Shown here: in pieces, positions 3,201-6,546 of the stretch
Layout of the letters: each line of letters starts with the position of its first letter
Numbering within the stretch: position 1 is the first letter of the stretch
From: a bacterium
Lineage (GTDB): Bacteria > SM23-81 > DAOVCL01
Reading direction: 5' to 3'
Assembly: GCA_029932675.1 (NCBI GenBank)
Contig: JAOZPP010000083.1
Span: forward strand, 1 to 13,343
DNA: 13,343 nt
Translations under genes and position numbers: made by a program
The notes under the pieces: model-generated
Seen by the model: only the letters and a program-made list of their open reading frames with translations
Database searches by the model: none
What the model was told of the DNA's origin: nothing

Positions 3201-3297
3201 GGGGCTCAATTTATCGAGCCTGCAAGCCGGGGCGGATGAATCCGGCCTGTCAAGACAGAGCCTTCCGCCGGGAATCCCGTCGGAACGGGGCTGACAG
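3201..3297. repeat. Two GGGGC hairpins followed by an expanded B-type unit
   Basis: GGCTC 3203-3207 pairs with GAGCC 3216-3220. GCCGG 3226-3230 pairs with CCGGC 3242-3246, with a smaller alternative CGGAT/ATCCG inside. Both hairpins contain a GGGGC tract near the 5' arm and an AT-rich loop (AATTTAT, GATGAAT). The expanded B-type unit runs 3247-3297, starting CTGTCA and ending CTGACAG, with the same CCCGTCGGAACGGG core as at 2806-2819. Confidence 0.7.
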
Positions 3298-3304
3298 CAC
3301 CTCA

Positions 3305-3448: not shown

Positions 3449-3453
3449 GGAGG
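3449..3453 (+). promoter_or_regulatory. Ribosome binding site that fixes the peptidase start at 3460
   Basis: GGAGG lies six bases before ATG 3460. A TTG at 3454 is in frame two codons earlier but touches this GGAGG directly, so ATG 3460 is preferred. Confidence 0.75.
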
Positions 3454-3459
3454 TTGGAA

Positions 3460-4887
3460 ATGCGTCAAGCAGTAGCATTATTTGCAGTCTTTGCCCTTCT
3501 GGGGATACTGGTGCCGGTTACGGCATCGGCCTTTGTTGCTCCAGAAGAGGAGCAGGTGATCAACCCCATGCCCCTGCAACTAATGCATCCAGAGGTGCAG
3601 AAGCAACTGGGTCAATCACCGGAATGGCAGGAGTTCATCTCCCAGGGGAATGGGAACTACTTCAAGATAAGGTGGAATGAGCTTACCGGGAGCCCTCATA
3701 ATATTGTCTGCTCCGGAGTGCAACTGCCTCTGCCTTTAAACGAGGAAAACATAGAGGAGAAGACCAGGGATTTTATCTCCTCATATAGCGGGCTGCTGAA
3801 AGTTAATTCAGACGATCTGAGTCTCCTGCGGGCAATAAAGAGGGGTGACAACTGGTATGTCTGCTATCAGCAGGAAAAAGAGGGGATCCCGGTGATCTCT
3901 GGGCTGGTGAGGCTGACGATTAACCGCTATGGGAAGGTCATCCAGTTTGGCTCCGATGCCTATCCCGACAGTGGGCTGACCACTGTCTCTAATATCTCCC
4001 AGGATGAGGCAGTGGCGATAGCCAAGGAGGCGGTGGGCTTTGATCCGGCTGAAGACCAGGTGATCGGGAGCTCCAAAGCGATATTTCCCTATCGGTCGGA
4101 TACAACGGTAACCACCCATCTCACCTGGGAGGTGAAGCTTTCTATCCAGGATCCTCCCGGGGAGTGGTTGGTCTATGTGGATGCTCAGAACGGGGATGTG
4201 ATCTATGGCTTCAACAGCCTTGAGTTCTTTGATGGCAACCGCATCTGGGGCCATGTCAATGGATGGATATATCCCCATCATCCAGCGGATTCTACTCGGC
4301 AGGATTGGTTTGCTTTGGAGAAGGTGAAGGTCTATACCGATCCGCCGGAGAGCACCTACACCGACTGGAATGGCTACTACAGCATGGATGTTCCCGATGT
4401 GGGGCCATATCTCTTGGAGTCCAGGCTGGAGGGGCAGCATTTAGTGGTCAAGGTTCATCCTGCAGAGGGGATACCCAATGCCCTGCACAGTGCCTGGGTC
4501 TATGCCGATGGGCCGCACAACTGGACCTGGGGGGAGCAAGGGGATGAGCTGGATGATGAGGTGAATATGTATTACCAGGCGACGGAAATTTATAAAGCCC
4601 TTATAAATCCATATGGAGTTTTCCAGTTTGACCTTATGGACTACTATGACCGTCCGATGTGGGCCGTAGTGCGGGACCCCGTTGGGGGGAATGCCTACTA
4701 TAAACCCGGCACTGGGGACATACACTTTGGGGCAGGCGACCCTGAACATGGTATCCAGAACCTCTCTTTAGACAACGATGTCATCTTCCATGAATACGGC
4801 CATGCCATTGTCCACCATGTCCAGGCAATGCTTATCTCTCGCACCTGGCAATGGGATGCTATGCACGAGGGGTTTGCCGACTACTGA
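3460..4887 (+). CDS. Secreted gluzincin metallopeptidase, N-terminal part, stopped by in-frame TGA
   Basis: 475 residues from ATG 3460. Residues 1-24 are a signal peptide (hydrophobic run, ...VTASA). Residues about 90-165 resemble the FTP propeptide region of thermolysin- and fungalysin-like peptidases. Residues about 265-330 resemble a carboxypeptidase-regulatory-like beta domain (TDWNGYYSM). The catalytic domain follows, with H444-E445-Y446-G447-H448 binding zinc and supplying the general base, and E470 in HEGFADY as likely third ligand. Translation then meets TGA at 4885-4887. The same frame continues for 552 more codons (after AAI, MNNDP...) with the rest of the catalytic domain, so this is the front part of one 1030-codon gene. 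As it stands the product would have zinc ligands but a truncated catalytic domain and no sorting signal. Confidence 0.85.
   Translation: MRQAVALFAVFALLGILVPVTASAFVAPEEEQVINPMPLQLMHPEVQKQLGQSPEWQEFISQGNGNYFKIRWNELTGSPHNIVCSGVQLPLPLNEENIEEKTRDFISSYSGLLKVNSDDLSLLRAIKRGDNWYVCYQQEKEGIPVISGLVRLTINRYGKVIQFGSDAYPDSGLTTVSNISQDEAVAIAKEAVGFDPAEDQVIGSSKAIFPYRSDTTVTTHLTWEVKLSIQDPPGEWLVYVDAQNGDVIYGFNSLEFFDGNRIWGHVNGWIYPHHPADSTRQDWFALEKVKVYTDPPESTYTDWNGYYSMDVPDVGPYLLESRLEGQHLVVKVHPAEGIPNALHSAWVYADGPHNWTWGEQGDELDDEVNMYYQATEIYKALINPYGVFQFDLMDYYDRPMWAVVRDPVGGNAYYKPGTGDIHFGAGDPEHGIQNLSLDNDVIFHEYGHAIVHHVQAMLISRTWQWDAMHEGFADY
4885..4887 (+). other. In-frame TGA where Trp is expected
   Basis: The codons read GAC TAC TGA GCA GCC ATT. 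In related peptidases the EGxADY motif is commonly followed by an aromatic residue and then Ala, so TGG (Trp) fits, one base from TGA. Both sides of the stop are open in the same frame, with no length change. Confidence 0.85.
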
Positions 4888-4896
4888 GCAGCCATT

Positions 4897-6546
4897 ATGA
4901 ACAACGATCCCCTGATTGGTGAGGGGGTCTCCTCCGATCCCTCACTATGGAGGAACTTAGAGAACAGCCTCAGGTGTCCGGATGACTTCATCTATGAGCC
5001 CCATCATGATGGCCAGATCATCAGCGGTGCCCTCTGGGATTTGAGGGAGGGCCTTGGGGGAACTTGCACTGACGGGCTCTTCTTTGAAGCCCTCTTTGGC
5101 ATCCCGATGTATTTCTCAGATTTCCTCGATCAGATGCTCATCGCCGATGACCTCTTCTATGGTGATGCCGATCCCTCAAATGGCACCCCTCATGAAGATG
5201 ATATCCTCCACGCCTTCTCCGATAATCACGGGATAACTCCCTCTCCGGGAGGGGTCTCCGGCCACCTCACAGCCAACACCACCTGGGAGGATAGCCTCAG
5301 GTTGGTTGGGCCTGTGGTGGTGGACTCTGGAGTCTGTCTAACCATATCCCCAGGGAGTAGGGTAAGCGCAGACCCCTGGGTTACCCTGAAGGTAGAAGGA
5401 ACCCTAAAGGCCCAGGGAACGGTGGCCAATTGGATAGATATCACCTCAGATGAAGGAGGATGGTTTCAGATATGGTTCTCCGAGGAGGCCAGTGATTCCT
5501 CTGTCTTGAGCTACTGCAACATTCAGAATGGATATTATGGCATCTATGGTAATCAGAAAGCTATGACCATCAGCCATTGCCATATCTGGAATATTGCCCA
5601 TTCAGCCATTGCCCTAAGCAACCCCGAGGGAATCTACCACGTGAACTACAACTACATCCACTCCTGTGGGACCGGAATCGCTATCTCAGGCTCAGGAGTA
5701 GTTGAGTCAAATAATATCTACTCTTGCCATATGGGAGCTGATCTCTCCGGGAGCAACCTGGAGCTCAGGGATAACTGGTTTAAAGACAACAGCGGATGCG
5801 GTGCCGATATGAGCGATTGCGACTCAACCTGTGTTGTATCTGGCAACTACTTTCTCAGCAACCATACCGGGATGGGACTATACAACTCCTCGCCGCTCAT
5901 CTCGCAGACGAAGATCGAAAATAGCACCTTTGCCGGCATCTGGTGTGAAGATACATCCTCTCCCCGGATAAATAATAACTGCACCATCTTCAAGAGTGGC
6001 ACCTATGGAATCATCTGTCTGTCTGGCTCCTCGCCGGTGATCTCTAAATGTGATATTGACAGCAATGGTGTATGGGGGGTCTACAACTATGATAGCACTG
6101 TAACTGTAGTGGCCGAAAGCTGCTGGTGGGGGGACCCAACCGGGCCTTATGATCCCAGCCCCAGGCCGCCTGACTATAACCCTGAAGGCAAAGGGGATAA
6201 GGTCACCGACTGGGTGGCCTACCGCCCCTGGTCAGAGGGGCCACTGGGGGTTAAGGGAACCCTTGCTGGAAGGTCTCTTCCCACTGGTTTCTCTCTTGGC
6301 CAGAACTACCCTAACCCCTTCAATTCGAGGACAGAGATCAGGTATGCTCTACCCAAGGAGTGCTGGGTGAAGCTGGAGATATACAACATCCTGGGACAAA
6401 GGGTGACTACTCTGGTGGATAAGAGACAGAAGGCCGGATACAAGACGGTGAGTTGGGATGCCAAGGAGGTAGCTTCTGGGGTGTATCTCTATAGGCTCCA
6501 AGCTGGGGACTTTGGGGAGACCAAAAGAATGGTTCTCCTCCGCTAA
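4897..6546 (+). CDS. Continuation of the metallopeptidase: catalytic C-half, beta-helix, T9SS domain
   Basis: 549 residues from the first ATG; the frame is open from 4888. Residues about 1-110 complete the peptidase domain (EPHHDGQIISGALWDLREGLG, then ILHAFSDNHGI). A linker beta segment (TWEDSLRLVGPVVVDSGVCLTISPGS) and beta-helix coils follow to about 430 (HCHIWNI, NYIHSCGTGI, NNIYSC, PVISKCDIDSNG, WWGDPTGP). The last 90 or so residues are a T9SS sorting domain (NYPNPFN, IYNILGQRVTTLV, GVYLYRL, KRMVLLR), clearly diverged from the duplicated one at 1-300. There is no ribosome site before ATG 4897 and no signal peptide, so independent expression would give a cytoplasmic fragment. It is best read as the back part of the gene starting at 3460, either a pseudogene, a read-through product or a sequence error. 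Confidence 0.85.
   Translation: MNNDPLIGEGVSSDPSLWRNLENSLRCPDDFIYEPHHDGQIISGALWDLREGLGGTCTDGLFFEALFGIPMYFSDFLDQMLIADDLFYGDADPSNGTPHEDDILHAFSDNHGITPSPGGVSGHLTANTTWEDSLRLVGPVVVDSGVCLTISPGSRVSADPWVTLKVEGTLKAQGTVANWIDITSDEGGWFQIWFSEEASDSSVLSYCNIQNGYYGIYGNQKAMTISHCHIWNIAHSAIALSNPEGIYHVNYNYIHSCGTGIAISGSGVVESNNIYSCHMGADLSGSNLELRDNWFKDNSGCGADMSDCDSTCVVSGNYFLSNHTGMGLYNSSPLISQTKIENSTFAGIWCEDTSSPRINNNCTIFKSGTYGIICLSGSSPVISKCDIDSNGVWGVYNYDSTVTVVAESCWWGDPTGPYDPSPRPPDYNPEGKGDKVTDWVAYRPWSEGPLGVKGTLAGRSLPTGFSLGQNYPNPFNSRTEIRYALPKECWVKLEIYNILGQRVTTLVDKRQKAGYKTVSWDAKEVASGVYLYRLQAGDFGETKRMVLLR

Follow-up and report, generated by a model that had tools for sequence, protein, structure and literature searches.

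The closest described relatives of the gene considered here are metallopeptidases of the thermolysin (M4) and fungalysin (M36) families, which share with it the HExxH motif followed by a downstream Glu and a propeptide of the PepSY/FTP type. The gene lies in a 13,343-bp stretch of DNA (the window; contig C95) from a metagenome-type assembly of 3.03 Mb in 116 contigs, 97% complete. When its single in-frame TGA is read through, the encoded domain gives a fold match to aureolysin, thermolysin, and an Aspergillus M36 peptidase. It differs from these enzymes in that identity is only 15–20%, the Pfam model Peptidase_M36 (PF02128) scores 16.7 bits (E-value 0.0046), below its gathering cut-off of 23.3, a beta-helix and a T9SS tail are added, and the frame is broken. 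Metallopeptidase and T9SS tail are also combined in NF038113 (T9SS-dependent M36 family metallopeptidase); the stretch of the gene that matches this model best is the tail (6.6e-14), and, as the score of 51 bits falls far short of the 885 required, the peptidase is not a member of that family.

Two further kinds of gene bear comparison. Bacterial selenoproteins (such as those of NF045500 and NF041198) resemble the locus in joining an in-frame TGA to an exported protein, a selenocysteine (Sec)-using genome, and a hairpin 3' of the TGA, whereas the site in the window has no Cys/Sec pair, no other homologue bearing a TGA, and a hairpin loop unlike those of the selenoprotein-like genes of this genome. 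Nonsense pseudogenes of metagenome-assembled genomes are similar in having one premature, unconserved stop and in occurring alongside broken genes of the same class. Unlike ordinary nonsense pseudogenes, the gene has only one lesion, which argues for a recent event or an error. We consider the TGA at 4885–4887 to be very probably an ordinary nonsense change or a consensus error. An initial annotation, made from the sequence alone, had put nonsense mutation or sequencing error first, and this is the reading that is best supported.

One Gene Interrupted by One TGA

On the forward strand, a frame that encodes a T9SS-tailed, M4/M36-like metallopeptidase (3460–6546) runs from the ATG at 3460 to the TAA at 6544–6546 and is open except for one internal stop, the TGA at 4885–4887, immediately 3' of HEYGH...HEGFADY. 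The translation confirms the initial annotation in this respect, and the coding score is unbroken over the stop, being 0.52 in the peptidase frame up to the TGA and 0.36 right past it, with the other frames negative. GC3 is equal before and after the TGA (0.625 and 0.62), homologues align over it without interruption, and a GGAGG at 3449–3453 stands seven bases upstream of the ATG at 3460. A search 3' of the TGA for a start codon with a Shine-Dalgarno site found none. The coding score and GC3 on both sides, together with the lack of such a start, indicate one continuous gene and not two neighbors.

An in-frame ATG (4897) does occur nine bases past the TGA, and it is conceivable that the second half re-initiates there and functions alone. 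This ATG has no Shine-Dalgarno site, however, the second half has neither a ribosome-binding site nor, despite its T9SS tail, a signal peptide, and the split lands within a helix of a single domain; two separate genes are therefore scarcely credible.

Genome-wide counts here and below rest on 2.34 of the 3.03 Mb (77%), scanned in stretches. In that part the DNA flanking the TGA is unique, save for 59 bases with 81% identity in a paralogue on contig C104, and this likeness sits well upstream of the HEYGH motif. With no like copy of this region elsewhere in the part scanned, an assembly mix-up of close paralogues is unlikely.

The Stop Falls within the Catalytic Domain

The portion of the gene before the TGA encodes a probable signal peptide (MRQAVALFAVFALLGILVPVTASA; 3460–3531, assigned by eye from the translation and not by a predictor), a PepSY propeptide-type domain (3994–4203; PF03413, 7.9e-6, above cut-off), and the zinc-binding and catalytic motif HEYGH (4789–4803), of which H, E, Y, and H are invariant in a 31-sequence alignment. 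The Glu of EGFAD (4867–4869), an invariant column (E190), is by homology the third zinc ligand. The TGA lies six codons past this Glu and in the same helix (residues 183–201 of the model, the TGA being residue 196), at a site that is usually aromatic in the family.

The portion past the TGA holds the remaining, C-terminal half of the catalytic region (4888–5244, delimited by alignment, model, and fold match), which is missing from the truncated product and in which the conserved residues are intact. Within it is a nearly invariant His (5002–5004; H235, in at least 90% of alignment rows) that the fold match suggests to be the probable counterpart of the thermolysin catalytic His. A right-handed beta-helix region (5497–5892; PF13229, 2.5e-19) and a T9SS type A C-terminal sorting domain (6307–6534) follow, the latter above cut-off with both PF18962 (6.7e-9, 34.9 bits against 27) and TIGR04183 (3.5e-10, 39.7 bits against 23).

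The gluzincin motif, HExxH plus a downstream Glu, is thus present in the read-through frame, with H164, E165, H168, and E190 invariant. A model of the read-through domain made with 31 sequences (mean pLDDT 91) matches M4/M36 peptidases with Z of 25–26 and an r.m.s.d. of 2.7–2.9 over 258–268 residues and has a thermolysin-like fold. The presence on contig C25 of SprA (TIGR04189, over cut-off), of the T9SS translocon, indicates that the T9SS in this genome is real. With the thermolysin/M36 fold, the Por_Secre_tail, and SprA, the earlier designation of the product as a T9SS metallopeptidase is right in substance, and so is the statement that the downstream part completes the peptidase and carries its only sorting signal, as the probable catalytic His, what remains of the domain, and the sole T9SS tail all lie 3' of the TGA.

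The Stop Site in Homologues

The residue aligned to the TGA was read in 102 homologues from many phyla and is Phe in 65, Trp in 13, Tyr in 6, Leu in 5, and Ile in 4, with Val (3), Thr (3), Asn (2), and His (1) found more rarely. It is therefore Phe, Trp, or Tyr in 84 sequences, Leu, Ile, or Val in 12, and Thr, Asn, or His in 6, i.e. aromatic or hydrophobic in 96 of the 102. That aromatic residues commonly follow EGxADY, as had been stated, agrees with these counts; Trp itself is a minority residue (13%), and the accompanying assignment of a Trp position is hence something we infer for this codon.

Neither Cys nor a stop is aligned to the TGA in any of the 102 homologues. Among the family matches in 386 genomes (roughly 145 matches in 82 genomes), an internal stop is found in the window gene only, and a family-wide programmed stop is ruled out, as none of the other family members compared carries a stop at the site. 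The paralogue on C104 has Phe there and is 41% identical in the catalytic domain. No close orthologue was found among the contigs and the 386 genomes, where the best matches are ~40% identical, and the one genome of the same genus (G001) gave no match to the peptidase.

TGA as a Stop Codon in This Genome

Of the 742 long ORFs counted in this genome, 244 terminate in TGA, and prfB, encoding RF2, is present. No suppressor tRNA was seen in the 2.34 Mb; tRNA-Trp has the anticodon CCA, and UCA occurs only on tRNA-Sec. The frequency of TGA as a stop, the presence of prfB, and the lack of a UCA tRNA for Trp or Gly in the 2.34 Mb rule out genome-wide recoding of TGA.

These observations also bear on the suggestion in the initial annotation that the stop may be leaky or regulated; in such a case a near-cognate tRNA-Trp or another tRNA would read UGA rarely and a small share of the product would be exported. 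In accord with it, the frame past the TGA remains intact, and among the residues that the family allows Trp is the one linked to the stop by the simplest change (TGG to TGA). Trace read-through occurs at any UGA, and the base that typically follows a leaky UGA is C, whereas here it is G. The other family members in the 386 genomes have no stop, RF2 is present, no suppressor tRNA was seen, and the RNA structure is at chance level over most spans and nowhere exceptional. The suggestion thus has little support, and we regard a leaky or regulated stop as highly improbable.

Selenocysteine Machinery and Selenoprotein-like Genes

The machinery for Sec, which the initial annotation had no means of seeing, is complete in this genome, with tRNA-Sec adjoining selB on C9, selA on C8, and selD on C46. 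The selD sequence (G000:C46:2635–3558) lies inside an open frame of 740 aa; at twice the length of a lone SelD, this frame suggests a fusion.

Three TGA-interrupted genes in the 2.34 Mb scanned, one on C98 and two on C62, match known selenoprotein families in which Sec or Cys is known at the UGA. The first is Omp28-related and T9SS-tailed and has UPYC at its TGA (L213, G000:C98, reverse strand, TGA at 2708; NF045500, 3.5e-17). The other two are neighboring UshA-like genes (L178, G000:C62, reverse strand, TGAs at 13498 and 11791; NF041198, 3.6e-44 and 1.3e-45), each with one in-frame TGA within a conserved N-terminal motif. In all three genes the matches cover the UGA region, with the full-length cut-off reached by none. 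In the part scanned, five genes that are otherwise intact clearly contain one in-frame stop; all five stops are TGA, and three of them lie in the selenoprotein-like genes. Small as this number is, it speaks against an ordinary stop in the window, as does the intactness of both halves of the peptidase gene. The Omp28-like protein on C98 would be an exported selenoprotein and is a predicted T9SS cargo.

The organism thus probably reads UGA as Sec at some sites. Since the genome probably makes selenoproteins, the UGA in the peptidase frame is not automatically a stop; the site needed testing for Sec, and the idea of read-through was worth pursuing in a genome that decodes some UGAs in this way. 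On such a reading, SelB, tRNA-Sec, and a downstream hairpin would place Sec at the UGA and yield a full-length, selenium-containing peptidase, for which tRNA-Sec, SelA, SelB, and SelD, the three selenoprotein-like genes, and a hairpin of suitable dimensions can all be cited. Nearly all selenoproteins, however, have Cys homologues (reviewed in PMC13188914), and with no Cys partner in any of the 102 homologues the window TGA fails the main test for Sec. No other family match in the 386 genomes has an internal stop, and a redox role is not obvious for an aromatic position in the zinc-ligand helix.

The Hairpin Downstream of the TGA

Folding predicts an 8-bp hairpin with the loop GAUUGGUG 26 nt past the UGA (4906–4929, forward strand; −14.7 kcal/mol). 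It has a SECIS-like outline and falls within all of the limits published for bacterial SECIS elements, which concern the stem, the loop length, a G in loop positions 1–2, the spacing, and the energy (PMC13188914). Controls put through the same filter passed at a rate of 17% for true TGA stops (n = 288), 22% for TGAs lying out of frame within genes (n = 1500), and 19% for shuffled sequences (n = 500); at the energy of this hairpin, 2–3% of controls passed. The loop, moreover, lacks the usual G[G/U], in contrast to the possible hairpins of the selenoprotein-like genes, which lie 28–34 nt past the UGA and have loops of 3–4 nt (GGC, GGC, and AGUU) that were read by eye from the sequence, the minimum-energy folds showing these hairpins partially. 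RNA structure near the TGA was no better than chance across most of the spans tested, and an Rfam scan of the window gave no matches. Because 17–22% of the controls pass the filter and the loop lacks G[G/U], the hairpin, SECIS-like but not exceptional, is weak evidence that neither excludes Sec nor strongly supports it.

Sec or other read-through at 4885–4887 is thus possible but unlikely, and we hold synthesis of a full-length selenium-containing peptidase to be quite improbable. Its corollary, a selenoprotein with no Cys homologue, in which Sec replaces a probably buried residue near the third zinc ligand that is not Cys in any relative, is very unlikely as well. Were it true, peptidase activity and export would depend on the selenium supply, and the protein would be a selenoprotein invisible to Cys-pair searches, a hint that such cases are under-counted. 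In a Sec-using genome, an in-frame TGA alone does not make a selenoprotein; a Cys-pair test and the chance rate of the hairpin are required.

Probable Origin and Consequences of the Stop

A nonsense change or consensus error accounts for the TGA as follows. A single base change has probably produced a premature TGA in an otherwise intact exported-peptidase gene, and this TGA may be fixed in the organism, may be a variant of some strains within the population sampled, or may be an error in the metagenome-assembly consensus. Apart from this one lesion the gene is intact, as a young mutation or an error would lead one to expect. Translation would stop at codon 476, giving a product that would retain the signal peptide, the propeptide, HEYGH, and the third zinc ligand and would be without the downstream His, the C-terminal catalytic half, the beta-helix, and the T9SS tail. 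Lacking the conserved His, half of the domain, and the tail, this product should be inactive and unsorted. As a broken gene, the peptidase would be of minor importance beyond serving as a caution.

Several other genes with T9SS tails, among the 96 tail motifs in the part scanned, also look broken. A T9SS-tailed fragment resembling C25-type peptidases (L231, G000:C116, about 1191–2772) has an apparent frameshift at ~1340 and a TAG at ~1380 and is likely a pseudogene. In a second gene (L146, G000:C29, reverse strand, tail at 5286), the frame seems to shift within an Ig-like region immediately 5' of the tail; the frame changes in both were called from the coding score and by eye, without homologue alignment. 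Together with a third gene, interrupted by TGA on C28 (below), they suggest that disruption of T9SS-tail genes, via decay or consensus error, is common enough in this genome that no special mechanism is needed for the TGA in the window.

A large T9SS-tailed protein with FG-GAP and CARDB (L145, G000:C28, reverse strand) is interrupted by a single in-frame TGA at 18374, with ~540 codons before it and ~1820 after. The site is apparently not a Cys position, as judged from the repeat pattern and not from an alignment, and the gene is a second case resembling the peptidase of the window.

Two repeats were also observed in the window. Bases 1–340 are duplicated with 100% identity at 2428–2767 and comprise a T9SS tail and DNA downstream of it; the contig starts within this repeat, and duplication of the tail may be what ended the assembly at that point. 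A direct repeat of 43 bases (2788–2830 and 3258–3300, 93% identical), separating two T9SS genes, is a possible intergenic repeat element.
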